This document shows positions 999-22,978 of a stretch of 64,000 nt of DNA, piece by piece (position 1 is the stretch's first letter; every line of letters begins with the position of its first letter). The notes beneath the pieces are model-generated. The model did not search any database and had not been told where the DNA came from. It saw only the letters and a list, made by a program, of their open reading frames with translations. The position numbers were made by a program, and so were the translations under genes. The DNA is from Mariprofundus ferrooxydans PV-1 (GTDB lineage: Bacteria; Pseudomonadota; Zetaproteobacteria; Mariprofundales; Mariprofundaceae): contig NZ_DS022294.1 of NCBI RefSeq assembly GCF_000153765.1, positions 682,836-746,835 of the forward strand, in the 5' to 3' direction.

Positions 999-1133
999 CA
1001 GCCTATCGCCTCGCTATCCAGCAGGAAGCAGGAAGCAGGTCATGTCATCATGAGAGATATTCAGGCATCGCACAATAACCTCCGGTCTGTGTCTGTCCGT
1101 GGGGTAGTATAGAGGGTTGGTGTAACACACAGG

Positions 1134-1541: not shown

Positions 1542-1550
1542 ACCCAGACC

Positions 1551-1880: not shown

Positions 1881-1890
1881 GTCCTGCTCC

Positions 1891-2394: not shown

Positions 2395-2396
2395 GA

Positions 2397-2966: not shown

Positions 2967-3014
2967 TGGATATAGCCCTCAGCCTGTAGATAATGGTTAT
3001 CGAGGCTGTTCATT

Positions 3015-4207: not shown

Positions 4208-4253
4208 ATGATTCCTCCTGCTTTCAATGTTTTCTCTTCAGCTTTCATTACGT

Positions 4254-4832: not shown

Positions 4833-4835
4833 GGC

Positions 4836-8300: not shown

Positions 8301-8491
8301 ACCTGCGGCGCCTGACCGGCATATTTGGTGAATACAATCACCTGCACATCGGAGAGATCGGGAATGGCATCAAGCGAGATATTTTTCACAGCAAAAGCGC
8401 CGGCAGCGATGAGCAGGCCGGTGAAGATAAGCACGATTAACTTGTTGCGCAGGCTGGCATCAATGATTTTCGCGATCATGGCTGGCTCCAC
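5318..8491 (-). CDS. cusA: CusA-type Cu(I)/Ag(I) RND efflux pump
   Basis: 1057 residues, full length for a heavy-metal RND inner-membrane pump with 12 membrane segments and two large periplasmic domains. Proton relay region: GGIAITLGAMVDGAIVLIENAH. The three methionines that bind Cu(I)/Ag(I) in E. coli CusA (573, 623, 672) have equivalents at 576 (LYMPTTFPG), 626 (LAMVETI) and 676 (IDMLSTGIKTPIGIKV), which points to monovalent metal rather than zinc or cobalt. It works with CusB and the outer-membrane channel as a tripartite pump driven by proton flow. Start ATG at 8491, or possibly the ATG at 8479 (MIAKIID). Its stop overlaps the DUF411 start. Confidence 0.95.
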   Translation of the reverse strand: MEPAMIAKIIDASLRNKLIVLIFTGLLIAAGAFAVKNISLDAIPDLSDVQVIVFTKYAGQAPQVVEDQVTYPLTTAMLAVPHSKVVRGYSFFGFSVVYIIFDDGTDMYWARSRVLEYLNYVAGRLPDGVTPTLGPDATGVGWVYEYALVDKSGKHDLAELRSIQDWYMRYALQTVRGVSEVASIGGFVKQYQVEVDPNALAEYGIPLARVRNAIKRSNNDVGGRLIEMGETEYMVRGKGYLKGIPDLESIPVGVDAHGTPILLRDVAHVHLGPELRRGLAELNGEGEVAGGVIIMRYGENALTTIEAVRKKLEELKSGLPEGVEIVPTYDRGGLIERAVENLKDKLFEEFLVISLVCMLFLMHARSALVAIITLPLGVLIAFMLMQWQGLAANIMSLGGIAITLGAMVDGAIVLIENAHKHLEQSEHVKGSVLSINERWAAIGRASREVGPALFFSLLIITVSYMAIFTLEAQEGRLFKPLAFTATYAMLGSALLAVTLVPLLMGWFIRGKVMPEEKNPVNRALQWMHGPTLAAALRHKWVTILIAIALLFSMAVPLAKIGSEFMPPLDEGDILYMPTTFPGISITKAKELLQQTDKILKTFPEVESVFGKIGRADTATDAAPLAMVETIIRLKPKKDWANPEKTTQALMKEMDAAIKFPGLANAWTYPIKTRIDMLSTGIKTPIGIKVSGPDLNVLQDVGMQIERAVKTLPETTSAFSDRAAGGYYLDIDIQRDKAARYGLTIGDIEDVIQSAIGGMNVTQTVEGLERYPVNLRYPRDYRSDPDALKRVLIPTPTGAQIPLAAVAEIGVHRGPPVIKSENARPNAWVYVDISSSDIGGYVARAKQAIHDQVKIPAGYTLEWSGQFEYMQRAAAKMRIVIPATLLLIFLLLYFNFGNLMAPVVVMLSVPFALIGGFWLVWWLGFNLSVAVAVGFIALAGVAAEIGVLVLTFIDQEVALRREDAGGKLAPDALRAAVQAGVAKRVRPIAMTATAVIAGLVPIMLGGGTGSDVMQRIAAPMIGGMVTTTLMCLVVLPVIYGMLLQFREKQIIKKDKETV

Positions 8492-8611
8492 CTGTGAAAG
8501 TGAGAAAATTCAAAATCCTTTACTGGCCATGCCTGCGCATCCATGCGGCTGCGGCATGTGTGCATCCTGCACGTCACTGCACGCATAAAGGACGCAGAGA
8601 AGAATTTGCTT
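8492..8611 (-). other. 120-base gap between cusB and cusA with short unproven ORFs
   Basis: The minus strand holds two short open frames. One starts inside the cusB stop region (MSTSKSKFFSASFMRAVTCRM...) and runs about 50 codons into the cusA start. The other can start at GTG or ATG and encodes a Cys/His/Met-rich peptide including AHMPQPHGCAGMAS. Neither has a convincing Shine-Dalgarno. I see no terminator. The segment may only be a spacer. Confidence 0.25.
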
Positions 8612-10126
8612 TTACTTGTGCTCATCTGTACCTCCCTCCATGCTCATGCCTTGCATTTTCTCTCCGTTCATCTGCATCCCCTTCATATCCATGTGATTCG
8701 GGGCATCCTGCCCCTCACCTTTCATGTGACCTTTGGTCATCCCATTTGGCTCTCCTGCCGAGTGGTAATCCATGGACATGCCCTGCATGTTCATGCCTTC
8801 CATGTCCTGACCGGCACTCCCACTGCCTTGTGGTGAGGCCATTGTCTTTGGTTCAACCATTTTGGCGGCGGCTTCGCGGATGGAGGATTCCGAGTCGATC
8901 AGGAACTGACCGCTGGACACCACCAGCTCACCGGCTTTCACGCCATCCAGAATCTCAACCTGTCCTTCGGCACTGGTGCCTGTTTTGACCGTACGTGGCT
9001 CAAAACGCCCGGGCCCGACCTGAACAAACAGATGGGCCTGTTTACCTGTAATCAGCACCGCTTCTCTCGGCACATAGATGCCGGGCTTGCTGGTGGATGA
9101 GGCGATAGCGACATCGCCGAACATATCCGGCTTGAGTGCGCCATCGCGATTATCAAACTCGATGCGCACCTTGTTGGTCCGTGTTTTGGGATCCAGGTAA
9201 GGATAGATATAAGTAATCTTGCCGGTGAACGTACGACCGGGCATCGAAGCAATACTCAGACTGGCCGAATCCCCCACTTTGACCCAGGGAATCTCATACT
9301 CATACAAATCGGCCAGCACCCATACGCGGGACAGATCGGCGATCTGATACAGCTCGGTCGCAGGCGTGACACGCGCTCCATCGCGTACGCCTATTTTTGT
9401 CACGATACCGGCTGCCGGTGCATGGATGTGCATGTTTTTCAGTACCTTGTGCGTGCGCTGCAGAGCCCGAATCTGGTGCTCCGGCACATCGAAAAAGCGC
9501 AGCCGATCCAGCGATGAGTCGAGCAGACGTTTTGCGCCTTCACGGATGTCCTTATACTGGCTGGCTTTCAGTTGCTCCCAGTTGGCCAGTGCAAGCAGGT
9601 ATTCCTCCTGTGTCGCCACCAGTTCCGGCGCGTAAAAGGAGAGTAACATCGTGTTCTCCTTGACACTCTCACCGGTTTTATCGACAAACAGCTTGTCCAC
9701 CCAGCCATCCACCTTCGGATGCAGGGTCGTCAGGCGCGTCTCATCAAAGGTAACACGCCCCACTGTGGTAACCTCACGCGACAGATTTTTTTGCACTGCT
9801 TTGGTGACGCGCACGCCGATATCCTGTGTTACAGTCGGATCAATCTTCACCGTGCCGGCCGGGCCACCGGCGCCTTCATCAGCACAGACGGGAATGTAAT
9901 CCATGCCCATTGAATCCTTGGCCGGCGCCGGACTGGTCACCGACGGATTCATAGGATTGCGCCACATCAGCGGCTGCGCTCCTCCGGCACATGGACCATC
10001 AGCCCTGGCACTTGCTTTCGGCGAACGATCGTCCTTTTCACCCTGTTGGCCGCCGAAAATAAAATACCCGCCAGCCAGGCCGATCGCGACGGCTGCACTG
10101 ATCCCTAGTAGGTTGTTTTTATTCAT
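8612..10126 (-). CDS. cusB: CusB-type membrane-fusion (adaptor) protein
   Basis: 504 residues from the ATG at 10126, which has AGGTGA eight bases upstream; the GTG at 10138 is part of that signal. An N-terminal membrane anchor (NLLGISAAVAIGLAGGYFIFGG) is followed by the metal-binding linker MWRNPMNPSV...DSMGMDYIPV, as in CusB. Then come barrel-sandwich and helical hairpin regions (KLFVDKTGESVKENTMLLSFYAPELVATQEEYLLA) and beta-barrel domains. The C-terminus is an unusual long Met/His-rich tail (MKGEGQDAPNHMDMKGMQMN, MQGMSMEGG). It joins CusA to the outer-membrane channel and passes metal to CusA. Overlaps the cusC stop by 8 bases. Confidence 0.93.
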   Translation of the reverse strand: MNKNNLLGISAAVAIGLAGGYFIFGGQQGEKDDRSPKASARADGPCAGGAQPLMWRNPMNPSVTSPAPAKDSMGMDYIPVCADEGAGGPAGTVKIDPTVTQDIGVRVTKAVQKNLSREVTTVGRVTFDETRLTTLHPKVDGWVDKLFVDKTGESVKENTMLLSFYAPELVATQEEYLLALANWEQLKASQYKDIREGAKRLLDSSLDRLRFFDVPEHQIRALQRTHKVLKNMHIHAPAAGIVTKIGVRDGARVTPATELYQIADLSRVWVLADLYEYEIPWVKVGDSASLSIASMPGRTFTGKITYIYPYLDPKTRTNKVRIEFDNRDGALKPDMFGDVAIASSTSKPGIYVPREAVLITGKQAHLFVQVGPGRFEPRTVKTGTSAEGQVEILDGVKAGELVVSSGQFLIDSESSIREAAAKMVEPKTMASPQGSGSAGQDMEGMNMQGMSMDYHSAGEPNGMTKGHMKGEGQDAPNHMDMKGMQMNGEKMQGMSMEGGTDEHK

Positions 10127-11426
10127 AATTATTATCACCTTTGTTTAAATCTTCTTTGCCGGCTGCAGCAGCCAGGCGCGCTTCGGCCTGTCGGGCCATC
10201 GACACCTGCTGCCAGTACTGGATATCGGTGTTGAATTCATTAAGTTGGGCGCGCACCAGGTTGAGAAAATCCACCTTGTTGACCTGATAACCGGCCAGCA
10301 TTGATGCCGTGGTCTGACGCGCCTGTGGCAGAATGCCCTGCTCAAACAGGGTTAGCTGCTTACGGGCAATGCGTAGGTCCGATGCAGCAGCGTCAATCTC
10401 TGCATCCACCTGATTGGCCGCGTCCTGCCATGAAAACTCGGCTTTTGCCTTTTCAGCCATGCGCTGATCCACCGCCTTATCCTGCTTGCTGCCGGTGTAG
10501 AGCGGCAGCGACATGCTCAGCATCAGCGAAGCCATATCGGGCCGTGGCTGACGGTTGGTCGTGCCGGAGCGAAAGCCATACACTGCGCCCAGCTTGAAGT
10601 CGGGGTAATAATCCTTTTGCGCCAACGCCACCATGCTGTCTGCAGCCAGCACCTGATCGTTCATCGCCAGCAACATCGGACGATGCTCTCTGGCCCAGAC
10701 TTTAAGTGCGGCGGTATCCGGTCTTTGCACACTGATATTCGTCTTCGCTTTACCGGCCAGTGCGATGGGGGTGGCAGCTGCGCGCCCAAGCAAGGCATTC
10801 AGCGTTGCTGATTCGCTGTTCTGTGCAGCCTGCAGCTTTAATTCCTGCTCCAGTAATTTGGAGAGTTCCAGTTGCGCCAGCAGCACATCCTGCTGCAGAC
10901 CCTTGCCCGTCTTGTATTTGGTTTCAGCAATACGAACCAGATTGCGTAACAGGCTCTGGTTCTGGCGCACAATGGACAGCGCCTTATCCAGATATGCCAG
11001 ATTCCACCAGTGGATGCGGGTATTGCGCAACAACACCAGCTTGAATTCCTGCTGGTTCTGCAGAGCTGCTGCAGCCATATGTTCTGCAGCTTCTGATTTC
11101 AGTCCAAGTTTGCCTGGAAAGGGGATTGCCTGCGAAAACCCCAGTTGCAACTGGGTCATCGCCTCCTGCGTGGTGGAAAATGAATCCACCGGCAGGTTCA
11201 TCGCATTAAACGATAATGTGGGGTCAGGCAGACTGCCCGCCTGTGACGGAATGGCTGCCATGGCAGCTGCATTTTTAGTGGCAGCGGCGAGGGCCGGGTT
11301 ATGCTTGATTGCCAGCACTTCGGCCTCTGACAGGCTTAAACCATCAGCCCATGCCATGGATAAATTTGGAACGGTGGCCAGCACCGTATACGCCAGCATA
11401 CGCCGGACTTTTTGCGGGACATGCAT
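10119..11426 (-). CDS. cusC: CusC/TolC-family outer-membrane efflux channel
   Basis: 435 residues from the ATG at 11426, chosen because AGGAGG lies nine bases upstream and a signal peptide (VRRMLAYTVLATVPNLSMAWA) begins at once. Two outer-membrane-efflux repeats are visible: LSLSEAEVLAIKHNPALAAA with its long helices, and the second starting LKVWAREHRPMLLAMNDQVLAADSMVALAQKDYYPDFKLGAVYG. Coiled helices rich in Ala, Gln and Leu form the periplasmic tunnel. There is no N-terminal lipobox, unlike E. coli CusC. It is the exit duct of the CusCBA pump encoded with it. Confidence 0.9.
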   Translation of the reverse strand: MHVPQKVRRMLAYTVLATVPNLSMAWADGLSLSEAEVLAIKHNPALAAATKNAAAMAAIPSQAGSLPDPTLSFNAMNLPVDSFSTTQEAMTQLQLGFSQAIPFPGKLGLKSEAAEHMAAAALQNQQEFKLVLLRNTRIHWWNLAYLDKALSIVRQNQSLLRNLVRIAETKYKTGKGLQQDVLLAQLELSKLLEQELKLQAAQNSESATLNALLGRAAATPIALAGKAKTNISVQRPDTAALKVWAREHRPMLLAMNDQVLAADSMVALAQKDYYPDFKLGAVYGFRSGTTNRQPRPDMASLMLSMSLPLYTGSKQDKAVDQRMAEKAKAEFSWQDAANQVDAEIDAAASDLRIARKQLTLFEQGILPQARQTTASMLAGYQVNKVDFLNLVRAQLNEFNTDIQYWQQVSMARQAEARLAAAAGKEDLNKGDNNYE

Positions 11427-11525
11427 AGAAACACGCCTCCTGCTAGAGATTCGCGCCATGCTGAAATGCACACAGCAGACGCACCCCCGACTCACAAGAG
11501 TGGTGGTATCAGCAGAAGGGTTTGA

Positions 11526-11960
11526 TTAAATTCGGATGCGTTGGCTGGTTGTATAAAGAAGGGTGGATGAGCGCGGTGGCCCGGTCGGAGTGCGCACGGT
11601 AAACAGGCCGCTGAAGTCATTCCATGTCGGGGCTGCAGGTTCGATCAATAAAGCCGGCAACACTAATGCTATATGTGCAAAGGAGGAGGACAGATTCGAC
11701 AACTCATCCGGCTGATCACAATGATAGCAACTACCCGAGTGATTCGAGGCATGATGCCCGTTCTCGGCTTTGGCACAGTGACCATCAACGTGGGCTGCTG
11801 TGTGTACTGAATGCACGCCAAGCATTGTCATCGCATGCGCTTCCGGCGTCAACATACAGAAGCCAGTGACTACAATTTGCAGCGCAAACAAACCCGCCAT
11901 CAGGCGAGAGAGACCACGGAGATGTAGTTTATGCCTCAACATAGGCCGCACCATACTCAT
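11526..11960 (-). CDS. Exported His/Cys-rich protein at the head of the copper operon
   Basis: About 144 residues from the ATG at 11960 (a TTG at 11978 is also possible; neither has a good Shine-Dalgarno). A signal or membrane segment (LMAGLFALQIVVTGFCMLTPEAHA) precedes a His-rich patch with HVDGHCAKAENGHHASNHSGSCYHCDQPDE, then a second hydrophobic stretch. This layout recalls DUF2946-like small proteins found at the start of metal-efflux operons, but I am not certain of the family. It is the first gene after the predicted promoter and ends 99 bases before cusC. Probably a periplasmic copper-binding or sensing protein; inferred. Confidence 0.6.
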   Translation of the reverse strand: MSMVRPMLRHKLHLRGLSRLMAGLFALQIVVTGFCMLTPEAHAMTMLGVHSVHTAAHVDGHCAKAENGHHASNHSGSCYHCDQPDELSNLSSSFAHIALVLPALLIEPAAPTWNDFSGLFTVRTPTGPPRSSTLLYTTSQRIRI

Positions 11961-12022
11961 CCAAACATGAAAACACAATGAAATGAAACCGCGTAAATTC
12001 CCACTCAGAATCTCTCCGGTAT

Positions 12023-12064
12023 GCGTTCCAGAAAATCATAAAGCGGTTTTGTCTAGCGTTCCAA
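12023..12064 (-). promoter_or_regulatory. Predicted promoter of the copper operon with two TGGAACGC repeats
   Basis: Reading the minus strand, TTGGAA (12059-12064) and TATGAT (12035-12040) are separated by 18 bases, about 80 bases before the first gene. The octamer TGGAACGC occurs twice in direct orientation (12056-12063 and 12023-12030), 33 bases apart, flanking the promoter core. The repeats could be an activator site. A MerR-type dyad between -35 and -10 was not obvious. Confidence 0.4.
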
Positions 12065-12114
12065 TTGCGGATGCCAGATTATTACAGATTGTTCCGCAAG
12101 CTCCGGAGGTTGAT

Positions 12115-12582
12115 ATGGGTACAAAATTGCAGACTGAAAGTAGCTGGTTTTCTGTCTACCACCCCCTCCAATCCGGAGAAGATAATGCAAGGCACACCGA
12201 TATAGCGATTACTGAATGCACAGTGAAAATGGTCCGTCAGGGCTTAGACCCAAACTATGCATTTCAGGTGCAGGAGTTGCTTGGTGCGAACCAGGAAACC
12301 ATAAGAAATATTTTCTGCGTATCGTACAGGACCCTACAGCGAAAAAGGAGCAAGAGATAGTTACTATCGCCCGCCATATCGGATCGTATTGCCAGATCTA
12401 TGCGCTTACTCAGATGTGTCCTGGATACCTTTGGTTGCGGGCAAGAAGGTGCCCGCATCTGGTTACATCACCCTTGTCGACCGTTGGGAAATATACCACC
12501 CATCCAGTTAATGGATACCGATGCAGGGTTGATTGAAATTGAAGATGTTCTCGGACGAATTCGCCATGGCATTTTTTCTTAA
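12115..12582 (+). pseudogene. Xre/ParS-type antitoxin gene interrupted by an in-frame amber codon
   Basis: ATG at 12115 has GGAGG six bases upstream. Residues about 35-80 (LGANQETIRNIFCVSYRTLQRKR) form the helix-turn-helix half of the DUF2384 antitoxin family. At 12358-12360 there is a TAG. The same frame continues without a break as LLSPAISDRIARSM and then the toxin-binding half RLLRCVLDTFGCGQEGARIWL...DTDAGLIEIEDVLGRIRHGIFS, ending at TAA 12582, exactly as the intact family ends. So a full antitoxin of about 155 residues is cut by a single nonsense codon. Its partner RES-domain toxin should follow on the same strand; none is recognisable in 12583-12754. Read-through by an amber suppressor cannot be excluded. 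Confidence 0.7.
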
Positions 12583-12754
12583 ACGCATTCAGCCTTGATT
12601 CTGAACTCCCCCGGCTCCCTAGTTGCAAATTGCACGCTAATCCCACAGGTGATTGCAACTCAAAATGGCGCAGTGCCACAGGCCCTCTTGACTCCATAAA
12701 GGATAATTTATTTACCACCATAGCATGGTGCCGGTTTACCAGCACGCGAAAATA

Positions 12755-13147
12755 TCAATGCTGTCGGCACCTATCTAGGTATGTCCTAATCATAAGTAGC
12801 CCGGTGAACCCCCATTCGCTGATTACCTCAACAGGGGATTTACCATGGAATGCCTGGTTACGTTGTGTCATCCAGGCGTAAGCCAGGTCCCGATCTTGTG
12901 GGAAGATTAACCGGAGGCTTTTGTGGATAGAGAGAATATGGCCAGCCCGCTCTAACAGGTCACGATTTGAAGCCATGGGAGCGCCATGGCGGTAACGCAA
13001 CAGCGTCGAGTGACTGGCATTGGATAGGCCGAGCATGGCCAGCTGATTGGAGTTGGTAAGCTTCCAATACTGAAATACTTTTGTTGTCATGCGAGCCAGC
13101 GCACGACGGTTCGTCTTGTCCAATTTTCTTGATACAGCGGTTACCAC
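12755..13147 (-). CDS. Xre/MbcA/ParS-type antitoxin, apparently orphan
   Basis: 130 residues from a GTG at 13147 that has AGGAGG six bases upstream. The N-terminal half carries the helix-turn-helix (LAMLGLSNASHSTLLRYRHG). The C-terminal half matches the toxin-binding domain of MbcA/ParS antitoxins (LLERAGHILSIHKSLRLIFP, AFHGKSPVEVISEWGFTGLLMIRTYLDR). Members normally precede a RES-family NAD-degrading toxin. Downstream on the minus strand (12754 to 12583) no RES domain is readable, so the toxin seems lost. It converges with the broken antitoxin gene at 12115-12582. An orphan antitoxin may protect against a related toxin elsewhere; inference. Confidence 0.7.
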   Translation of the reverse strand: MVTAVSRKLDKTNRRALARMTTKVFQYWKLTNSNQLAMLGLSNASHSTLLRYRHGAPMASNRDLLERAGHILSIHKSLRLIFPQDRDLAYAWMTQRNQAFHGKSPVEVISEWGFTGLLMIRTYLDRCRQH

Positions 13148-13289
13148 GCTTCTCCTCCTATCCAGTTTGCAGATTTTAGCACAGGTCACCTTCATGTGCA
13201 GAAAGCAAAGCGGCTTCCACAATTGCAATTTAAGTATTTAAGACTCAGCCACAAGCACTACTCATCATTCCACTTTTGAACTCGATTTG

Positions 13290-13375
13290 AGAGCCGGCCC
13301 CGGAAAACTGGACAGTGTTATAATTGGATTTCTTGCCTAATCTAAGCCGCCGGATTACATCAACAGGACAGTGCT
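13290..13375. other. Possible insertion-sequence end remnant
   Basis: The segment around GCCCCGGAAAACTGGACAG (13296-13314) resembles, from memory, terminal repeats of IS3-family elements. GGACAGTG occurs twice in direct orientation, at 13310-13317 and 13366-13373, and a TATAAT lies at 13319-13324. No transposase is nearby. The second copy lies inside the C-terminal codons of the HD gene, whose last residues may therefore be foreign. The rest of 13148-13359 shows no gene. Confidence 0.2.
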
Positions 13376-14289
13376 ATTTCAGTGGTTTGTTTGTGAACTT
13401 TAGATCGCAGTATCCTTCCTATCTGGCCACCACTGTAGCTCCGCTGCTCCAGATCTTTTTCGCCGCTCAATTTGTCGGCAAAGCGTAGTATATTTACCAG
13501 AGCACTTCTTGGATGCCTGATGCCAGTCCATTGAGGTGCCGGCTTGGCCACGAGAAAATGAAGTAAGGCAATTCGGGTTGGGTGATTGATTTCCCAAATG
13601 CTATTCATGATCGGAGCGAGCATTTCAAGTAGTGTTACTTCATGCCCGAGCAGTGTTCCACGGTCTGTCAGGCGTCGATACTGGTTGTACTCGTAGGCCT
13701 TACCAAGATCATGCAGAAAGGCCGCAACCAGAAGCAGATCACGTTCAATTGGTTGCAGGTTTCCAGATTGGGCCAGTACGATTTCCATTGTCTCACGAGT
13801 ATGGCGAATAAGCCCGCCGGGGTAAGCGTGATGGTGATTAAGGCTGCCGGGCGCATGTAGTGTTGCTATCATAAACTGTCGATCTGAAATCACCTGAAAT
13901 ACAAGGCGACGAAGCTCTGCATTGCCGATGTCATCCAGCAGTGACGATACAAGTGCCGACTCATCGGGCAAAGGGATATCTGAAGGCGCCAGCAGAAGTG
14001 GGCAACCATCCCATGATGAGAGCTCAAGTATGGATATTACATCGCATATAACCTGCCTCCCAAGGATTCGTCCCTGGCCGGAGATCCATAGTACCGCATC
14101 TGTTTTAGGAGGTTCCAGCGGAGTGCCCCAGAAGTAGGCATCAATTTTTCCAGAGTGATCTGACAGACCAAGCTTCCAGTAATCTTTGCCCATACGGGAG
14201 ATACTACCCATTGAGGATTGCAGGTAATAAATCCCGGAAAATCTCTGCCCATCAAGAATTGACCGAATTGAAGTGCCGTTGTTTTTCAT
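13360..14289 (-). CDS. OB-fold plus HD-domain protein, YhaM-like
   Basis: 309 residues from the ATG at 14289 (AGGGTGA five bases upstream; GTG starts at 14292 and 14298 also exist). Residues about 25-80 look like an OB-fold nucleic-acid-binding domain (YWKLGLSDHSGKIDAYFWG). Residues about 145-280 are an HD domain: HHHAYPGGLIRHTRETMEI, the metal pair FLHDLGK near residue 193, and a late H. This OB-HD layout matches the 3'-5' exoribonuclease YhaM and the N-terminal part of TraI_2 proteins of mobile elements. It is the last gene of the integrase operon, overlapping or abutting the preceding small gene. Likely a nuclease or phosphohydrolase serving the element; substrate unknown. Confidence 0.7.
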   Translation of the reverse strand: MKNNGTSIRSILDGQRFSGIYYLQSSMGSISRMGKDYWKLGLSDHSGKIDAYFWGTPLEPPKTDAVLWISGQGRILGRQVICDVISILELSSWDGCPLLLAPSDIPLPDESALVSSLLDDIGNAELRRLVFQVISDRQFMIATLHAPGSLNHHHAYPGGLIRHTRETMEIVLAQSGNLQPIERDLLLVAAFLHDLGKAYEYNQYRRLTDRGTLLGHEVTLLEMLAPIMNSIWEINHPTRIALLHFLVAKPAPQWTGIRHPRSALVNILRFADKLSGEKDLEQRSYSGGQIGRILRSKVHKQTTEIALSC

Positions 14290-14294
14290 CACAT

Positions 14295-14627
14295 TCACCC
14301 TATATGGATATTTTGAAGGTAGGCTCGAAGCTCCGCCTCCAGAGATTCGACCAATAAGACAGCATCAGAACTGGGTAATGGCCACTGTTCTGTTTGCCCC
14401 AGCCTCATTAGAACCCAGGAGGCAATCAAATCAATAGTGTCTGTCTCCTGCCCATTTGCTCCTGGCAGTCGGCGCAACTGATTTCCCTGCCGGATCTGGA
14501 GAGAGAAGGCCAGGTGCCGCGCCAGCATTTGAGCAGCACTCCGGCGTTGAGGATCATCCTCTTTATTCATTGTTTTGCTTATGTGAGCTCCACAACTTGG
14601 GCACAAGGAAGCATGACCACTATTCAT
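14295..14627 (-). CDS. Small protein with an N-terminal CPSC knuckle, unknown function
   Basis: 110 residues from the ATG at 14627, chosen because GGAGG lies eight bases upstream. The N-terminus has CPSCGAHI, half of a zinc knuckle or a CxxC redox motif, with no second pair visible. The remainder is helical and charged (QRRSAAQMLARHLAFSLQIRQG, LLVESLEAELRAYLQNI). I do not recognise the family. It overlaps the integrase stop by 8 bases and its own stop falls 5 bases before the HD gene, so it is translated as part of that unit. A DNA-binding or adaptor role is only a guess. Confidence 0.55.
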   Translation of the reverse strand: MNSGHASLCPSCGAHISKTMNKEDDPQRRSAAQMLARHLAFSLQIRQGNQLRRLPGANGQETDTIDLIASWVLMRLGQTEQWPLPSSDAVLLVESLEAELRAYLQNIHIG

Positions 14628-15798
14628 CGTCACTGCCTCCAACCCTCGTTTCGATTAATGCTCTAATAGCAGAGCCATCATTACGGGTCAGGTTGGGGAT
14701 ATAGCGGGAGTAGACTCTGAAAAGCATTTCCGTATTGGTATGGCCCAGTTGACGGGCTACCCACTCAGGGTTTTCACCTGAAGCAAGCCAGATTGTCGCT
14801 GCTGTATGACGCGTTTCATATGGTCTGCGTATTGGCAACCCCAGTCGATTCAACAGCGGGCGCCAGACCCGGCGCCTGAAATTATTTTGATGTAATGGGG
14901 TTCCACTACGACTACAAAACACCAACTCCATAGAACCGGAGTATTTTCTCTGGTCAAGTAAGGCTTCACGTACGATTGGGAGCATCATGATGTCCCTGTA
15001 CGAGCTCTGAGTCTTTGGTGTGTCCTCCTCCCGGTCGACCACCGTTTCCCGAACTGCAATAATACCAAGATCAAAATCCACATATTTCCACTTTAGCCCA
15101 TCGATTTCACCTGACCTCATGCCGGTAAAAAAACGGGTTACAAGGTAGTTGTGGTAGTCACCCCTGATTTTTTTACAAAGCAACATTACCTCATCCAACG
15201 TGAATGGATGTATCTCCTTTTTACCTTCCGGTATTTTTTTTATGCTGCGGAATGGGTTGGGGAAGTCATAACGCTCAGAAGCCTCGCCAAGAATCCCGCG
15301 TAGGGGCTTCATGATATTATTGATGCGTGATGGTGACCTTTTAATGCCACCCTTACCGAGTGTGGTTGATAGCTCGGCGCGAAAGGCGAGGATATCTGCT
15401 TTAGTAATGGCTCCCACCTCATAATGTCCAAATCGGGGGAAGAGTGGGTTTTCTAAAGTATATCGATACCCCTTGATCACCGATTTTTTCCAGCGCACCA
15501 CATTTTCGGACATCCAAATTTCTGCGAAATCCCTGAATAGTGGAGTCCCTGTGTGTGAGCTTGATGGCAGTGGCCGGAATTCAGCAGCTCGTTTACTGTG
15601 GGGGAAGTATTTTGCATACGAAAACACTCCTGTAGCGATTTCCCTCTCAATTTTATCCAGCACCTTCTGCAACCGGCTGCGATTGCTTGGAGTGTCCTCC
15701 AACAGGGTCTGCTCCCGGCAGCGAACCCCCTGATAACGGAAGTCGATCACTAAGTGGCCAGCACCACCCTTTGATTTGCGAACAGTGATGCTACCCAT
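14620..15798 (-). CDS. Tyrosine-type site-specific integrase
   Basis: 392 residues from the ATG at 15798, which has AGGAGG seven bases upstream. The N-terminus (SITVRKSKGGAGHLVIDFRYQGVRCREQT) is an arm-type DNA-binding domain of the DUF3596 kind; a SAM-like core-binding domain follows (about 95-190). The catalytic domain has the full set: R in TRFFTGMRSGEIDGLKW, H and R in YETRHTAATIW, H in RQLGHTNTEMLFRVY, and the nucleophile Y ten residues after that H. It would integrate and excise the element with the small protein encoded just before it, whose gene overlaps by 8 bases. It is not adjacent to the tRNA scar, so it may belong to a second, nested element. Confidence 0.9.
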   Translation of the reverse strand: MGSITVRKSKGGAGHLVIDFRYQGVRCREQTLLEDTPSNRSRLQKVLDKIEREIATGVFSYAKYFPHSKRAAEFRPLPSSSHTGTPLFRDFAEIWMSENVVRWKKSVIKGYRYTLENPLFPRFGHYEVGAITKADILAFRAELSTTLGKGGIKRSPSRINNIMKPLRGILGEASERYDFPNPFRSIKKIPEGKKEIHPFTLDEVMLLCKKIRGDYHNYLVTRFFTGMRSGEIDGLKWKYVDFDLGIIAVRETVVDREEDTPKTQSSYRDIMMLPIVREALLDQRKYSGSMELVFCSRSGTPLHQNNFRRRVWRPLLNRLGLPIRRPYETRHTAATIWLASGENPEWVARQLGHTNTEMLFRVYSRYIPNLTRNDGSAIRALIETRVGGSDDE

Positions 15799-16024
15799 GA
15801 ATAGCACCTCCTGCGCGTAGCGGAATAATCGGTATTTCATCATTCGATGCCTTGTGCATCTCACCCTCTATCGCCTCCCAGATAAACAGGATCTTCCTGC
15901 GTCCAAACGGACGAATGTAGTGGACACCTTCGATGAACACGGAATCCAGCAAGCAGTTTCTTATGTATCTGGCATCGTATTTTATACGACTAGATAGCTC
16001 TCCAGTGGTTATATATTGACCCAT
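15791..16024 (-). CDS. Excisionase-like small DNA-binding protein
   Basis: 77 residues from the ATG at 16024 (AGGAGGT six bases upstream). The sequence ITTGELSSRIKYDARYIRNCLLDSVFIEGVHYIRPFGRRKILFIWEAI reads as a winged helix-turn-helix of the excisionase or helix-turn-helix-17 kind, with the basic wing at GRRK. Such proteins bend att DNA and turn the integrase towards excision. Its gene is first in the leftward operon and its stop overlaps the integrase start, so the two are made in a fixed ratio. Expression should be under the divergent Xre repressor. Confidence 0.7.
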   Translation of the reverse strand: MGQYITTGELSSRIKYDARYIRNCLLDSVFIEGVHYIRPFGRRKILFIWEAIEGEMHKASNDEIPIIPLRAGGAIHG

Positions 16025-16052
16025 AACGACCTCCTTTGGTTCGTATGTGCCA

Positions 16053-16081
16053 ATTATGATACATTTGTAATGCTGTGTCAA
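16053..16081 (-). promoter_or_regulatory. Leftward promoter of the excisionase-integrase operon
   Basis: On the minus strand TTGACA (16076-16081) and CATAAT (16053-16058) are separated by exactly 17 bases, 29 bases before the excisionase ATG. The spacer contains the dyad at 16058-16071, so a bound repressor would block RNA polymerase directly. Confidence 0.6.
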
Positions 16082-16119
16082 TAGCGATACATTTGTATCT
16101 TTGTTGACAACAAGTTGTC
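16058..16119. promoter_or_regulatory. Three 14-base dyads in the divergent control region
   Basis: GATACATTTGTAAT (16058-16071) and GATACATTTGTATC (16086-16099) are near-identical dyads with centres 28 bases apart. GACAACAAGTTGTC (16106-16119) is a third perfect 6+6 dyad with the same two-base centre but a different half-site. The first lies in the leftward promoter spacer, the second just upstream of its -35, the third over a rightward TTGACA (16104-16109). Layout suits autoregulation by the Xre protein encoded at 16162. Confidence 0.55.
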
Positions 16120-16161
16120 GCCAAACAATCATTGGAGTCACTTGACTTCTAAGGGGGAGCG

Positions 16162-16383
16162 ATGATAAAAATAAAACTGAAGCAGTTGCTTGCTCAACGA
16201 GCCTATGACGGGGAGCGCATGACGCTTGTTGAACTTGCCGAACAAACCGGCATTTCCCGCACAACGTTACAGCGCATTGCTAACACTCCTGGTCATAGCA
16301 CAACCACGGAGCACATTGATAAGCTTTGCAAAGCGTTGAACTGCAACCTGAATGATCTGATTGAATTTTCTCAGGACGAGTGA
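16162..16383 (+). CDS. Xre/Cro-type repressor, divergent from the integrase operon
   Basis: 73 residues, almost only a helix-turn-helix_26-type domain: MTLVELAEQTGISRTTLQRIANTPG, then HIDKLCKALNCNLNDLIEF, the typical Cro/C1 five-helix core of compact repressors in mobile elements. GGGGGAG lies four bases before the ATG. Divergently transcribed from the excisionase-integrase unit across a 137-base region that holds three dyads, so it most likely represses its own promoter and that of the integrase. Its stop is 19 bases from the convergent stop of the large recombinase gene. Confidence 0.8.
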   Translation: MIKIKLKQLLAQRAYDGERMTLVELAEQTGISRTTLQRIANTPGHSTTTEHIDKLCKALNCNLNDLIEFSQDE

Positions 16384-16402
16384 TTGAGAGTTTCTTTGCT
16401 CG

Positions 16403-19400
16403 TCACTTCAATCCTTTAACTTCAGAGTGATGAGCGTCGTCCAAAATATATAAAATATAAAGAGCATACCTAAACCCATAAGGCATGCTTAGCTTTGCCT
16501 TCCTTTTTTTTCTTACACCACTAACTCCGGTGATTGAACTGATTGTAATACCAATGGTTCCATTTCCACGTTGTTGTCCAAATGTCGCTTTGATTAAATC
16601 ACACTGATCAACAGGTATAGAGAGGGCGTTAGCCCACTGATCTGCCTGCAGTTTAGCTTCCTCCGCACTCCGACCCTTTCCTCGATAATGAAGTAGCTTC
16701 ATCTCCTCCTTTCGAACCCCTATCATCGTCAAAAATTGCAAATACTCGATTGCATTTGCCTCATCTGTGAAGCGAATATCACCACCCTTTGGGGAGTAGT
16801 GGTGAATAAAGTGGTTGAGCCATTGATGAATAAGCTCACGTTTTTGAGGAACACGCTTTTGGGTGAACGAAAATATTCTGTCTGCCATTTCGATATCATA
16901 TGGGGATGTTAATCCGGTGGGGAATGGAAGGAGGGCAGTTACTCTATGGCGAGGCTTCCCATTCGGGTGTGCCTTGGTCTTACGTGTTCGCATACCGAAT
17001 AACTCATTCGCTCGACTAAACCAATGTTTTAGCTTTTGCTCTTCTATCGTATATTTTGCAGAAATATCAGAGACTGCCATCCTCTTGACCGACCTGTCTT
17101 CAAGTATGGATTGGACGGTTCGCCACTCAATGGGTAGGGGTTCAATAATGATGTCAGAAATATTTACTGCTGACAGCTGGTTAAGTCGCGGGTCTTTGAA
17201 CTGATGCTTCAACTGCTTCCATGCAGGAGCAATAAAAGCTGAAGGAAGCCATTGATCCATACCTGCCTTCTGCCTCAGGCGGTATGCCATAGCTTTTTTA
17301 ATGTCGGTTAAATTTAACACTGCTTCTAATGTTAGTATGGGCTGGGCTACATTCCTCATAGTACTGCAGCCAAGCAGCAGATCCAGCAGGTGAATGTAGT
17401 GCCTGAGGGACATTTCAGGACTTGAGTGTCCACACACAAGAGCTACATGATAGAGGGCCTTTCGATTTATGCGTAGATCAATTTGTAAATGATGATGTTC
17501 GACCAAACATCGCCTCATAGAGTTCATACTCTCATTTAAGGCAGATACACTTTTCGGTCGCCACGATGTCTGGCTGCCGGATTCCAGCCTATAGAAAAAC
17601 CACGATGCAAAAGAGTGTCTCAATGTGTGAAAATGCAAGCTGGGGTCTGCTGACACTTGCCTTAATGCCTGATGAATCGCCCCAAATATCTGCCGCTCAT
17701 CTATTGGTTCAAAGGGGGTTCCTGCTTTACAAAAAAGTAATCGTTTCTGATTCTTCTTTTCCCACTGAGTCTGATATTCAATACCATCCTCATGGCCTCT
17801 AAGGTGAATCCACTCCTTCAACCTGGTTAACTCATTATGCGTCAGAAATGCTTTAAGATGGATCTTTCTGACCGCACTGTCAGATTTTTTATAGGCGTAT
17901 GGATTATGACGAATAAACAGCACGGGATTGTAGAGGCCACAGATATCAGAGCATAAAATAGTCATCACTTCAGCTCGTCTCAAACCGCACCTGAATCCAA
18001 GCATCATGATTAATAGCGCTATGAGGTTATCTCTAGGGGCTCTTGCTCCATATCTTTTTCCCAAGGTATTAGCAGCGTATTGGTAGATGGATGGACAAAC
18101 AATGTTTGCGTCGACACCAAGGTCACTACTGCCTTTCCCTCTATAGAATTCTGTTAAATCAATCTTAGGGACATCCCAGTAGTAAACGAGGAAGTCATGG
18201 AACTCCGCCAGTCTCATAGCTGTAACTTGCTTATTGTTTTCACCGCATTTCGACTCGATGACATCCCGATATAACGCATAAAACTCACATTCATTCAGGG
18301 CCATAATATCGCTTCCACCTACATGAACCTGAAGCTTTCTGGCTATAGTAGTGACATATGTGCGAACAGATGATGGTGCGATTTTTGATCCTTTCCTTAT
18401 ACCACGCTTATAGGTGAAGAGCATGATCGCCCACTGTGCTATAAGCCAACCAAGTTGACTCATTTTACTGCCATGGAGTTCTAAAAAAATCTGAACAGCT
18501 GTTTTACTCGATGCTGAGCTACCACCCTCTTTTCGGGCTCGGCACTCTTTTGGGTGAATGGCTTCGTAAAGCTTTGCCCATAATGCAGGAGGCATATCTG
18601 TAACCGCCTGCTTGATATTTTTTGATTTCTCTTTAGGGATAAAATCAGAGTCTAAGGATAATGCCCTCAATTCAATCGGTACGGCATGTCCGACTCGTAC
18701 TCTGGCCCAGACATCAGCAGGTAGTGAGACGGATTTAATTTTCTCAATTGCATAATCTGCCAGGTATGGTTTTGAGTAGAGCGATATTCTCGTATGTGCC
18801 ATTGCCAGAAAATCTGATAGATTTTTTTGCCTGTGATTGATATCCAATTGCAAATGATCCATCAGTTGCGTGAGATACTGCCAAGGATCCACTCGGAGCC
18901 TGTTTGAGCCTATCTGTATGGATAACCTTATCCTGCCTAATATTAATAATGTTAAAGGGTCAATAAACCAGCGCTTATGCAGACTTATACATTCACCACT
19001 GTGTTCTTTATTGAAATACACAGGTCGGTAAATCTCTACCCATGCTATATCTTCCTCAAAAACCAAACCCTCAAAGGGATCTCTAAGCCAAGCGATTAAC
19101 CATTGCCGACTGAGTAATCCACCATATACGGAGGCGGAGAAGGCTAGGTAACCTAATAATATCGAACTACCGTCAGTAAGTGGCCTGTCCAATGATTGTA
19201 AAAATAGGGACTCGAATGCTCTGAGCTTACCCAGCCCACGCATGGCATCACCTGTAAAATGCGGCGGTTCTCTTGTCGCATAGGTTACCGGTGCGGGTAT
19301 ATAGACTTGCCACCCTAGTTGCCCGGCTCCACGCTCCAAGCCTTGAACCAATAGGTTTCTACGCTGCTTGTAAATATGCCCGGGGGCATCTTTTCTTAGT

Positions 19401-19600
19401 ACATCACAAAAATCCTCGGCCTCCTGCTTTGTCCATGATGCTCCAATGACACCAGCGTATATCTCTGGAAATGAGCCATGAAGAAGCCTCATGAGAATAC
19501 GGAACTGTATACGCTTTCTCACAGCGGGTTGCGACCTGGGATTATTCTTGCTTGGTCTGGGAGCCAGCCCCAGCCATATTTTGTGAGGCTTAATCATCAT
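16403..19600 (-). CDS. Very large tyrosine-recombinase-like protein (1065 residues)
   Basis: From the ATG at 19600, which overlaps the stop of the preceding gene as ATGA. The catalytic domain lies in the middle (about 500-760): R in MMLGFRCGLRRAEVMTILCSD, H-x-L-R-H in LHFHTLRHSFASWFF, H in LVCGHSSPEMSLRHY with Y ten residues later, so all catalytic residues seem present. About 490 residues precede it and about 300 follow it, including a basic region (VRKKRKAKLS); neither flank matches a domain I know. Typical integrases are 300-450 residues. It is the third gene of a leftward operon starting near the tRNA scar and is richer in A and T than the copper genes. Likely the catalytic integrase of the island. 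Confidence 0.75.
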   Translation of the reverse strand: MMIKPHKIWLGLAPRPSKNNPRSQPAVRKRIQFRILMRLLHGSFPEIYAGVIGASWTKQEAEDFCDVLRKDAPGHIYKQRRNLLVQGLERGAGQLGWQVYIPAPVTYATREPPHFTGDAMRGLGKLRAFESLFLQSLDRPLTDGSSILLGYLAFSASVYGGLLSRQWLIAWLRDPFEGLVFEEDIAWVEIYRPVYFNKEHSGECISLHKRWFIDPLTLLILGRIRLSIQIGSNRLRVDPWQYLTQLMDHLQLDINHRQKNLSDFLAMAHTRISLYSKPYLADYAIEKIKSVSLPADVWARVRVGHAVPIELRALSLDSDFIPKEKSKNIKQAVTDMPPALWAKLYEAIHPKECRARKEGGSSASSKTAVQIFLELHGSKMSQLGWLIAQWAIMLFTYKRGIRKGSKIAPSSVRTYVTTIARKLQVHVGGSDIMALNECEFYALYRDVIESKCGENNKQVTAMRLAEFHDFLVYYWDVPKIDLTEFYRGKGSSDLGVDANIVCPSIYQYAANTLGKRYGARAPRDNLIALLIMMLGFRCGLRRAEVMTILCSDICGLYNPVLFIRHNPYAYKKSDSAVRKIHLKAFLTHNELTRLKEWIHLRGHEDGIEYQTQWEKKNQKRLLFCKAGTPFEPIDERQIFGAIHQALRQVSADPSLHFHTLRHSFASWFFYRLESGSQTSWRPKSVSALNESMNSMRRCLVEHHHLQIDLRINRKALYHVALVCGHSSPEMSLRHYIHLLDLLLGCSTMRNVAQPILTLEAVLNLTDIKKAMAYRLRQKAGMDQWLPSAFIAPAWKQLKHQFKDPRLNQLSAVNISDIIIEPLPIEWRTVQSILEDRSVKRMAVSDISAKYTIEEQKLKHWFSRANELFGMRTRKTKAHPNGKPRHRVTALLPFPTGLTSPYDIEMADRIFSFTQKRVPQKRELIHQWLNHFIHHYSPKGGDIRFTDEANAIEYLQFLTMIGVRKEEMKLLHYRGKGRSAEEAKLQADQWANALSIPVDQCDLIKATFGQQRGNGTIGITISSITGVSGVRKKRKAKLSMPYGFRYALYILYILDDAHHSEVKGLK

Positions 19601-21960
19601 GGAAAATAAACCATGGTCTCCCAACCGCAATCACCAAGTAATTTAGTGATGTGCTTTGCGAGAGTGACTTTATAATCAATCGGGCTCATGGATGAAAACT
19701 TTGCCCAGGGCTCCTGGCCTCTTTCCCAATGCCCCATGAACGCGTTGATCACGTCACCGGGGCAGCCCATTTCCAGCAGGTTGCTTCTGATAAAATGCCT
19801 ATGTGCATTGGCTGGAAAAGGATATTCGCTTGGGAAAAATGTCTCGTATAATTTTGGAGTAAGCGTTGTTATGTTCTCATCTACGATTAAAAAAAAGCCC
19901 GGCAGTGATTTTTTATCCTTATTATCCTTTTCAATCGCACCCAGAAGCTCTTCACTTAATTTCTGATATACCGCAGGCAAGCAAACGGAAGCATATTCAA
20001 GTAGCTTGTGTAACTGGGATCTATAGACCTTTATTTGTTCTAAACAACCCTCTGGAATCCAAACCAATCTGGAGTGGTATTTATCATCACTATCTTTGTC
20101 CGATACAACTGCAAATCCTTCCATAAAATCGACTTCATCCAGTTTAAATGAAGGGTCTCCAACTGCTCGATAGCCGGTTGAGAAGTGAATAAATGCTGCT
20201 GTATATATCGACATAGCATTGTGTCGTGCAATCACATCCTCTTTTCCCGCCCTCAGAACATCTTGTTTCAACTTTTCACATAGTGCAGACACCTCTGACT
20301 TAGTTGGTCTTAGCCTTGCTCCATGCATCCGCTTATCTGGATAAAACGGCTTCAGGCACAGAGGTGACCGTTTTTCTGATTGAAATTCAAACTGAGTGTT
20401 TTTCGCAATGTGAAGACACGTTTTCTGGTATAGAGAATGCAACCGCTCTGAATCGGTGGCTGTATAATAAATAGGAGTAGCCCCAACAAAGCAAGCCTTT
20501 CCGGTAATTAACATCCCAGTGGTGACTTCCGAGTTAGCGGCACCTGCAATCGCCTCAAACATGAAGCTTGAAAGGCGGCCAACAGTAAGGCGGCAGCCAT
20601 ACTGGTTATTAACGCTGGAGAGAAAACCAGACACCTTACCTTTGTAATCCTCAACCGTACCTGAAAACAGCTTTTTACGGCAGTGGATTGATTGAAAGTA
20701 TGTAGCAATGATCTGCTCTACAGATATCCCTGTTGTTAATTGCAAATGGGTAGCTATATCCAGCTTTGAATATTTCCTAACTTGTGATGTATAGTGAGGC
20801 TGGGCTGTTTTGATAAGCAAAAACGGCTGGGGTGATAGTACAAACGTCACAGCCTCAGTTGGGGACTTCGGCTCAATTCTATACCCAACAGTTCTGATGG
20901 CCTTTTCGAGAGGTGCGGAAAACCAGAACATAATAGCCAACAGCGCCGCCAGTTCGATCAATTCATTTTGGCGTTCCTGATCTTTATGTGTGATTCTACT
21001 TCTGTATAAAGTTGTGATGCATTTTGCCGCACAACTTGCCTCATACATCGATAGATTAGCCCAGCGCGATATCAGCATCTGGTTCGACATGGCCATGTTT
21101 TTATGGACATTTTTAGATCTTATAATGTGATCTGCGCTAGTTCTTCCATCCAGTGGTTTGTCATCACTGAATGATACTTCGGTTATCTCTAACGGGTATG
21201 TAAACTCACCAATAGAAAGCCCGCTTCGATCCAGCTCCTTTTCCTTTACAGGACCATACATTGGCAATTTGGTAATTGTTCCAGATACAACCGGTTGCCC
21301 ACTGTCAGGGTTCTCGGATACAGGTTCTCTATCCCTTGCCGGATGCTTTCGGTGACCGTCACCACCTTCACGTGTGACCCCTTTTCTAATTCCAAGTGCA
21401 TATCGAATAAACACAATGAATGATGTTACTCTAGGACAGTCATTCAACTCTATCAGATGTGATAAATAATCTTCTGTAGATGTGATCGTATCTGGCAGTT
21501 GTTCCAGCTCATGAATATGAGTGCTCTTGATGATCGAACGTGCAAAGGTGAATGCAGATTTTCTGCTACTTTTGAAAACGCTCCCTTTATCTTCGAGCCT
21601 GTGGCAGGAGGCATTTGCAACAAATAAATGCGCAAGCAGAATATCATGCTTGGTTAATAGATTATGATCCCTAGGAACATATGATAATGTTACATACGCT
21701 TGGTGCTTTTCATACAGTCCACGAAGTGAATCGATTGATTCGATGTTTGTACCTTGGGCCGCTTGAGCTTGCAGTGCGTTTTGGCATGATTGCAACCATA
21801 GTGGGATAGAAGATAACTCAGGGAGCTTGTCGAGGTTGGCTATCTTATTAACATGATCCAGTACTCGAATCAGGCGGGGAATAATAAAATGCGCCTCGTT
21901 GAGTTCTTCCGGTGCCTCAATATAGGCTATTAGATTAGGATTCAGTTGCATTGGGCTCAT
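19597..21960 (-). CDS. Large tyrosine-recombinase-like protein with unusual active site
   Basis: About 787 residues from the ATG at 21960; upstream starts to 22062 would overlap the previous gene by 128 bases and none has a Shine-Dalgarno. The C-terminal third resembles a tyrosine-recombinase fold: R in FSTGYRAVGDPSF, then HRHFIRSNLLEMGCPGDVINAFMGHWERGQEPWAKFSS. After the GHW histidine the place where the nucleophilic tyrosine is expected holds F (eleven residues on); a later Y is nineteen residues on. It may therefore be a non-cutting structural partner. It sits between a ParB-like gene and the 1065-residue recombinase, with coupled overlaps on both sides. Function beyond island recombination is not readable. 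Confidence 0.65.
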   Translation of the reverse strand: MSPMQLNPNLIAYIEAPEELNEAHFIIPRLIRVLDHVNKIANLDKLPELSSIPLWLQSCQNALQAQAAQGTNIESIDSLRGLYEKHQAYVTLSYVPRDHNLLTKHDILLAHLFVANASCHRLEDKGSVFKSSRKSAFTFARSIIKSTHIHELEQLPDTITSTEDYLSHLIELNDCPRVTSFIVFIRYALGIRKGVTREGGDGHRKHPARDREPVSENPDSGQPVVSGTITKLPMYGPVKEKELDRSGLSIGEFTYPLEITEVSFSDDKPLDGRTSADHIIRSKNVHKNMAMSNQMLISRWANLSMYEASCAAKCITTLYRSRITHKDQERQNELIELAALLAIMFWFSAPLEKAIRTVGYRIEPKSPTEAVTFVLSPQPFLLIKTAQPHYTSQVRKYSKLDIATHLQLTTGISVEQIIATYFQSIHCRKKLFSGTVEDYKGKVSGFLSSVNNQYGCRLTVGRLSSFMFEAIAGAANSEVTTGMLITGKACFVGATPIYYTATDSERLHSLYQKTCLHIAKNTQFEFQSEKRSPLCLKPFYPDKRMHGARLRPTKSEVSALCEKLKQDVLRAGKEDVIARHNAMSIYTAAFIHFSTGYRAVGDPSFKLDEVDFMEGFAVVSDKDSDDKYHSRLVWIPEGCLEQIKVYRSQLHKLLEYASVCLPAVYQKLSEELLGAIEKDNKDKKSLPGFFLIVDENITTLTPKLYETFFPSEYPFPANAHRHFIRSNLLEMGCPGDVINAFMGHWERGQEPWAKFSSMSPIDYKVTLAKHITKLLGDCGWETMVYFP

Positions 21961-22477
21961 TTTGTTGCGCGTAAAAAAGTTTCTGCCTGCTGTAACCGAT
22001 GGCTCTTGAATAAGCAGTTTTAGATGCATGAAGTGGCGCGAGCTTTCGGATGGTTTGTTCACCCAGCAAACGAAACAGACTTGCGAGCTGCTTACCTTGT
22101 GATCTATGCATCAGCTGAGTGAAGTGCTTCAAGTAAATATCAGACAGTGTCAACTCCATCAGCACACTATCATCTAACTGGTCATTCGGAATGAGTGTTG
22201 CTGGCACAGTAGCCGCGGACTTAATGCGGGTTCTCGCAGCTTGCAATGTTCGAATTCCTGCAACGCAATAGTATCTATCACGCTCTTTTATCACGATAAT
22301 CGGCTGGGTGACCAAGAGGATGTTGATTGCCTCCGCCGATAAGTCAGTGAATGAAATGGCATATTGTAGTTTCGCCTGAGCACTGGCGGCATCTTGTATC
22401 ATCGGGTGAATCAGGATACTACCCAGTTCCACGGGAGCTATGGCGGCGGAGACGGGGCATGGTGAAATATTCGTCAC
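21935..22477 (-). CDS. ParB-like small protein, first gene of the recombinase operon
   Basis: 180 residues. Residues about 12-100 resemble the ParB/Srx-like N-terminal fold: ELGSILIHPMI, then LVTQPIIVIKERDRYYCVAGIRTLQAAR, which has the strand-strand-helix order in which ParB families read a value, then G-x-R-x-L-x-A. The C-terminal part (TIRKLAPLHASKTAYSRAIGYSRQKL) may be a helix-turn-helix. There is no catalytic GERR motif in full. It is upstream of and overlaps the two large recombinase genes. It could be a CTPase-type DNA-loading or targeting factor for the recombinases, or a regulator of the operon. Assignment to the ParB fold is moderate; role is inferred. Confidence 0.55.
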   Translation of the reverse strand: MTNISPCPVSAAIAPVELGSILIHPMIQDAASAQAKLQYAISFTDLSAEAINILLVTQPIIVIKERDRYYCVAGIRTLQAARTRIKSAATVPATLIPNDQLDDSVLMELTLSDIYLKHFTQLMHRSQGKQLASLFRLLGEQTIRKLAPLHASKTAYSRAIGYSRQKLFYAQQNEPNATES

Positions 22478-22978
22478 ATTTTAACTCCTTACATTCTACT
22501 TTTTATGGATGATAGCAAGGGGTGGCAAGTTGTCCAATATTGCATAAAGTGACCATTTAAAATATTTAATTTGTTTATTTTAAACAAGTTAATATACTTT
22601 AAGGCCGTCTGTCACATCTAGCCTCCATTATCCTCCGAAGCCGAAGGCCAGTGGTTCGAATCCACTAGGGTGCACCATCTCTCAGACAGTTATTGCGACA
22701 CCTGCCTGTCATCCACCCTGCCTCAGCACAGCTCCGTGACAGCACTACCGGAGGCCGCTAGCACCCGTTCCATCCCTGTTTGCCGATAAAAACCTTACAG
22801 GGACAATGATTTTGTTTCTGCTATAATCTGAAAACTCATCCCTTGCTCCTAAAGCGGGTGGTGGGGACGAATATGGGGTCACCTAAATGACAGGGTCAGA
22901 GAGTAAATCCCGTAACAAGCAACCTGCCGGGCTGAAAAAGAGCCGCCCGACCGGCATCTCCGGACAGGATCACACTGC
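22478..22978. other. Intergenic junction region with island end
   Basis: The part from 22490 to 22620 is very A+T-rich and should hold the promoter of the leftward recombinase operon; ATTTAATTTGTTTATTTTAA is typical of it. The tRNA fragment follows at 22632-22677. From 22678 to 22978 I see no gene; GTTTCTGCTATAATCTG (around 22816-22832) contains a good -10 for the rightward sensor gene. Confidence 0.5.
22632..22677 (+). other. 3' fragment of tRNA-Arg(CCG): right attachment site
   Basis: The sequence contains the anticodon loop CTCCGAA (anticodon CCG), anticodon stem 3' strand GCCGA, variable AGGCC, T arm AGTGG-TTCGAAT-CCACT, acceptor strand AGGGTGC, discriminator A and CCA. The bases upstream (CCATTAT) do not pair as a 5' anticodon strand (TCGGC expected), and no D arm or 5' acceptor is present, so this is not a functional tRNA. 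Islands that insert at tRNA genes leave such a duplicate of the anticodon-to-CCA half at the far end. Confidence 0.85.

Follow-up and report, generated by a model that had tools for sequence, protein, structure and literature searches.

A ParB-fold gene and two recombinase-fold genes form an apparently undescribed gene set beside split tRNA genes of proteobacterial islands

Recombination modules built from several genes have been described in a small group of mobile elements, and we compare with them three overlapping genes (hereafter the trio) from a 64,000-nucleotide stretch of the Mariprofundus ferrooxydans PV-1 genome (the window; contig NZ_DS022294.1, positions 682,836 to 746,835), where a small ParB-fold gene (gene 1) precedes genes for two large recombinase-fold proteins (genes 2 and 3) at one end of a 60.8-kb island. 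GInt elements resemble this locus in that one operon, marking one end of a cargo island, encodes a small non-recombinase protein together with several proteins of tyrosine-recombinase fold, of which one has an incomplete active site (GinA-GinD; PMC5385486). However, GinD comes last in ginABCD and has no reported ParB fold, whereas the small ParB-fold gene comes first here; moreover, GinC lacks the first arginine, whereas the middle protein of the trio keeps this arginine and lacks the tyrosine (PMC5385486). It is by these described features that the trio is set apart from GInt. The closest parallel in division of labour is offered by SE elements (IntA, Tfp, IntB, Srap; PMC10214605), which combine an ordinary integrase, a large integrase, a recombinase-fold protein without catalytic residues and a small protein. 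They have the order intA-tfp-intB-srap, imperfect terminal inverted repeats of 13-19 bp and 6-bp footprints, with no ParB-fold first gene and no tRNA halves described (PMC10214605), whereas the island ends here are tRNA halves with a 9-bp core and the gene order is unlike that of SE.

RIT elements (RitA, RitB, RitC) likewise carry three overlapping recombination genes, but theirs encode three recombinases of ordinary size (315-410 aa), all with a catalytic tyrosine, between 34-bp terminal inverted repeats (PMC3414803, PMC10214605); the trio departs from RIT in protein sizes and in its ParB-fold first gene. The Gamma-Mobile-Trio (GmtX, GmtY, GmtZ; Nat Microbiol 2024, cited in PMC12715929) is also a three-gene recombination module of gammaproteobacterial cargo islands; its proteins (492-889-225 aa) come in another order and are not homologous to our middle protein. 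We rejected identity with this module: there was no NCBIfam match to the GmtY family NF040693, with our own genome below the cut-off, and true Gamma-Mobile-Trio loci are not similar to the middle protein and only weakly similar to the large one. Four genomes that hold the trio contain a Gamma-Mobile-Trio elsewhere. Finally, the integrase that accompanies the trio (Int) shares the PF12167 arm-binding domain of DUF3596 integrases, the IntBPP-1 subgroup (PMC8138268); no trio is reported there for phage members, Gifsy-2 for example (PMC8138268), and the trio itself is unrelated to them. Open-literature searches for a ParB-fold protein combined with recombinases found nothing, although papers beyond the searched literature are possible; the trio is apparently a widespread, undescribed gene set, in agreement with a first-pass annotation of this DNA that had suspected a little-described system.

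All three genes of the trio are intact minus-strand open reading frames (ORFs) with overlapping frames, running from 22477 to 16403 in what the first-pass annotation had recognised as one operon. Gene 1 (21935..22477; 180 aa) encodes a ParB/sulfiredoxin-fold protein, as judged from its ORF, its predicted fold and homologues before the middle gene in most loci. Gene 2 (19597..22062) encodes a tyrosine-recombinase-fold protein without a conserved catalytic tyrosine (ORF, fold and alignment), and gene 3 (16403..19630) a giant tyrosine recombinase with a full active site (ORF, PF00589 match and alignment). The lengths given previously, 787 and 1065 residues, are those from the ATG starts at 21960 and 19600; gene 2 reaches 821 aa from a GTG and gene 3 1075 aa from a TTG. 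Genes 1 and 2 overlap by at least 26 bp, and genes 2 and 3 share an ATGA junction.

Gene 1 starts 154 bp inside the island from the 3' half of a split tRNA-Arg(CCG) (22632..22677, plus strand), which begins at the anticodon loop and constitutes the right attachment site; the right attachment arm, from the core to gene 1, spans 22478..22631. The 5' half lies 60.8 kb away at G000:C4:644648-644701 (G000:C4 denotes the contig holding the window; below, other G numbers denote genomes and L numbers loci of relatives). The scar reported beside the operon is therefore half of a tRNA gene whose other half sits at the far end of the island, of which positions 1..22631 lie inside the window and the remainder is G000:C4:644702-682835. 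A 9-bp core in the anticodon loop, CCTCCGAAG, occurs at both ends (22632-22640 on the right and about 644693-644701 of G000:C4 on the left), and the acceptor stems of the two halves pair with each other (GCACCC/GGGTGC). ARAGORN found no whole tRNA in the window; a separate intact tRNA-Arg with a different stem (GCACTC/GAGTGC) lies 177 bp inside the left end (C4:644879-644955). The left-hand half and this intact copy together span C4:644648-644955, which corresponds to L044 8649-8956. Because the stems of the halves match and an intact tRNA-Arg is present inside the left end, we conclude that the island split the tRNA gene and brought a replacement. This rules out a 3' fragment that merely reconstitutes an intact tRNA 60 kb away, since it is the chromosomal tRNA-Arg that is split and the intact copy that lies within the element. 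The joined tRNA-Arg was found intact in several same-genus genomes (93-99% identity, with the sequence outside the tRNA not conserved there), and these uninterrupted copies support an empty site. Three genomes of the genus (G010, G014 and G021) also hold halves of the same tRNA-Arg(CCG) cut at the same 9-bp core, with neither trio nor Int near the ends examined.

The association with tRNA halves recurs in the family, for which records of gamma-, alpha- and deltaproteobacteria yielded 46 relatives after redundancy was removed. Relatives came from plasmids, from sampled proteobacterial genomes and, at 29 loci, from named species; Shewanella sp. ANA-3, Vibrio, Photobacterium, Pseudomonas and metagenome-assembled genomes of Geobacteraceae are among these. 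The small ParB-fold gene precedes gene 2 in most loci. Among 42 non-redundant trio loci whose upstream DNA reached 1 kb or more, scored with a strict sequence pattern, 18 have a tRNA 3' half no more than 1.3 kb upstream of gene 2, against 0.7 expected from the remainder of the same loci (P about 8e-20). All 18 halves are antisense with the cut end facing the trio, and both this orientation and the distance from trio to half (0.2-1.0 kb) are held in lineages with about 20% identity. The halves derive from at least seven tRNAs (Arg, Asp, Gly-TCC, Gly-GCC, Val, Thr and fMet), with His in addition in one contig with shorter upstream DNA. For islands at Asp (46 kb), Gly (66 kb), His (33 kb) and Thr (74 kb), and likewise for several more Vibrio/Photobacterium Gly islands, we found the second attachment copy, which lies at an intact tRNA. 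The first-pass annotation had proposed to ask whether the trio is conserved next to tRNA genes, and its conservation beside tRNA attachment sites was supported. Recurrence and conservation across such divergent relatives rule out a chance arrangement or a pseudogene. A phage origin was rejected, as no trio relatives were found in phage records or IMG/VR at the sensitivity used and the PHROGs matches are to generic integrases; a defence system was rejected for want of a PADLOC match, and a DNA-level search found no E. coli match.

Gene 3 matches PF00589 (E 5e-12) and has a complete active site (R551, K582, H668, R671, H735, Y745), of which H668 is kept in 42 of 55 relatives and the other five residues in all 55. 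In gene 2, the C-terminal catalytic-type domain (residues 581-814) superposes on the archaeal Xer structure 4a8e across 170 residues (Z 15.5, root-mean-square deviation [rmsd] 2.5 A), and residues 334-528 form a second, degenerate catalytic fold that is Cre-like (Z 10.0). Among 47 relatives of gene 2, R632 is present in all, K656 and H778 in 46 each, H756 in 41 and R759 in 37, but no conserved catalytic tyrosine was found: a tyrosine at 789 occurs in 13 only, and the neighbouring serine 790 is near-invariant (44/47). Two giant tyrosine-recombinase-like proteins had been called here; both do have the recombinase fold, but the middle one lacks a conserved catalytic tyrosine and cannot count as a normal tyrosine recombinase. 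At three loci (L058 7287-12902, L067 5593-11418 and L146 2-5218), one reading frame of 1739-1941 aa joins genes 2 and 3.

The earlier ParB call for gene 1 was borne out by structure prediction, with weak similarity in profile searches (PF02195, E=0.02; TIGR04285, E=9e-4). Like our other structure models, the AlphaFold model is a moderate-confidence monomer prediction (predicted local distance difference test score 68 overall, about 80 over the first 110 residues). It aligns with Myxococcus ParB in VIA (Z 9.2, rmsd 2.8 A, 95 residues); the 13 top VIA rows are ParB, Noc, PadC or KorB, followed by sulfiredoxins, and the top Foldseek match is also ParB (E 7e-4). The predicted fold is therefore clearly of the ParB/sulfiredoxin type, with a predicted ParB-type N-terminal domain at residues about 12-121 followed by helices, and relatives show a helix-turn-helix-like (HTH-like) stretch at the C-terminus. 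Where ParB has the CTP-binding motifs GERR.. and ENxxR, gene 1 shows GIRTLQAA, with G-x-R only, which is lost in many relatives; judged by its sequence, gene 1 is probably not a canonical partition CTPase.

Overlooked previously, Int and an excisionase-like gene adjoin the trio 0.4 kb past gene 3. Int (14620..15798, minus strand; 392 aa from ATG, longest ORF to 15864) is of the DUF3596/Arm-DNA-bind_2 type (PF12167, E 2.9e-23; PF00589, E 1.3e-15). The excisionase-like protein of 77 aa (15791..16024, minus strand) has no Pfam match; a similar ORF lies upstream of 15/15 trio-associated integrases tested. A Cro/C1-type HTH regulator of 73 aa (16162..16383, plus strand) is divergent from the excisionase-like gene. 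Int lies just past the trio in Asp-type islands and several others; in Gly and His islands it is found at the other end, with 0.6-1.0 kb between it and the intact tRNA. In a sample of 398 proteobacterial genomes, one per species, the trio was present in 18 and Int in 18, with both in 13 (0.8 expected, P 8e-17), and in two genomes that had seemed to carry Int alone (G102 and G030), trio genes or a remnant are present as well.

In the L101 island, which lies at a tRNA-Asp, gene 3 falls among Gly-island proteins (41.7% to L115) and Int among Asp-targeting integrases (57.9% to L099), so the choice of tRNA follows Int and not the trio. A 12.4-kb circle of permafrost Acinetobacter lwoffii (pALWED3.4, NZ_CP032289.1; L176), annotated as a plasmid, has a tRNA-Gly 3' half, Int, an excisionase-like gene and, placed as in the window, a regulator, but no trio; the circle may be an integrative element that has excised. 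The converse is seen on Acinetobacter plasmids whose trios occur without a DUF3596 Int. We therefore take Int to be the likely integrase at the tRNA, and the trio to be a second module that can be separated from Int yet is strongly linked to it. Most likely, then, Int and the excisionase-like protein perform tRNA integration, and the first-pass view of the trio itself as an integration system goes beyond the evidence.

The reading that we favour, with middling confidence, is that the 60.8-kb island inserted in the tRNA-Arg anticodon loop, that Int and its excisionase-like partner integrate and excise it at the tRNA, and that the trio is a second recombination module at the opposite attachment arm. 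Int and its partner would recognise the tRNA and carry out both reactions, and the trio would be kept just inside the other arm, such that in the excised circle both modules could flank attP. In the most likely mechanism, the ParB-fold protein would bind arm DNA; the middle protein, with active-site residues and no tyrosine, would be a partner in a structural or allosteric role; and strand cleavage would come from the giant protein with its intact active site, in a reaction that controls or completes excision and integration or processes the excised circle. Action at the attachment region and this division of labour are our inferences. We favour the former because place and orientation relative to the tRNA half are conserved over deep divergence; analogy also speaks for such a role, as elements with an incomplete-site recombinase-fold protein and a small partner need such proteins for recombination, all four GInt genes being essential (PMC5385486). 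Possible arm sites exist: TGGTCAC motifs are over-represented in the arms of the window island and the Asp islands, with one copy in the right arm of the window island (near 22550) versus five in its 177-bp left arm, and they and GGTCACGGTCAC are candidate arm-type binding sites. Tandem GGTCACGGTCAC and TGGTCAC motifs stand in right arms of Asp islands and in left arms of the window island and the A. caviae KAM479 island (L017 2659-2930 and, for A. caviae, L090 from 6542). A bolder version strikes us as doubtful: it sees in the trio a novel type of machine for site-specific recombination, needed for tRNA-island movement, in which a ParB-fold DNA-binding protein, a recombinase-like scaffold with a conserved serine at the nucleophile position and a giant active recombinase would work with a separate integrase at one attachment site.

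Several observations weigh against the favoured reading. The TGGTCAC motifs stand on both arms and may be Int sites instead of trio sites; the strict pattern found no tRNA half upstream in 24 of the 42 loci; plasmid trios occur with neither a DUF3596 Int nor tRNA halves; the Int set on the Acinetobacter circle indicates that an element can exist without the trio; and the correlation between gene 3 and Int distances (Mantel r 0.75, reached by 0/5000 permutations) is confounded by host phylogeny, that is, by partly shared ancestry. Some of these points fit a rival account that we rate as tentative but possible, in which Int and the excisionase-like protein do all of the tRNA recombination and the trio acts elsewhere on the element or circle, e.g. 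in multimer resolution or maintenance, lying near attP through clustering of mobility genes. The Int-less trios of Acinetobacter plasmids lie near rep and parAB genes, Int does without the trio on the small circle, and Int sets the choice of tRNA, all as this account would have it; however, it leaves the fixed orientation of the trio and its 0.2-1.0 kb spacing from the tRNA half across divergent lineages poorly accommodated, and recombinases this large with a tyrosine-less partner are unusual for dimer resolution. Action on the excised circle nonetheless remains close to the favoured reading.

The same spacing and orientation, kept at about 20% identity, make it very unlikely that the trio, as a GInt/Tn554-like transposon in its own right, has hitchhiked beside island ends time after time; plasmid trios without tRNA halves and the modular exchange of Int partners would suit such a transposon, but we identified no terminal repeats of the trio's own, and 18 tRNA halves were observed where 0.7 were expected. 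Least probable of the accounts weighed here is that the trio itself is the tRNA-site recombinase and the DUF3596 integrase a passenger: although the trio is closest to the tRNA half in the window island and the Asp islands and the active site of gene 3 is complete, the target tRNA follows Int, Int adjoins the intact tRNA in Gly and His islands, and Int with a tRNA half exists without the trio.

Neighbouring genes and more distant relatives were also recorded. Downstream of Int (window 13360-14298) lies a gene for a 312-aa HD-domain protein, kin of YhaM and of the HD part of MobH/TraI_2 relaxases. The left end of the island (L044 10426-18334, that is, G000:C4:646425-654333) encodes an outer-membrane efflux protein, a membrane-fusion protein, a CusA/CzcA-type RND pump and a CadA-type P-type ATPase, a cargo of the metal-resistance kind. 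On an Acinetobacter baumannii plasmid (L179 7221-23422, NZ_CP151079.1), the trio stands directly before an HNH gene and a BREX defence cluster. More distant recombinases of 965-973 aa, paired with a divergent DUF3596 integrase (L144 9202-12099, L148 11560-14481 and L153 4712-7621), possibly form a sister system.

With the trio, the small group of multi-recombinase systems (GInt, SE, Tn554, RIT and Gamma-Mobile-Trio) gains a further case. It raises the question of why, on a tRNA island that already has an ordinary integrase, a much bigger set of recombinases is retained as well, in which one protein has lost its nucleophile. About 1 in 20 of the sampled proteobacterial genomes (18/398) carry the trio, mostly annotated as hypothetical protein or site-specific integrase, and its presence marks out many tRNA-linked islands, the metal-resistance island of M. 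ferrooxydans among them.

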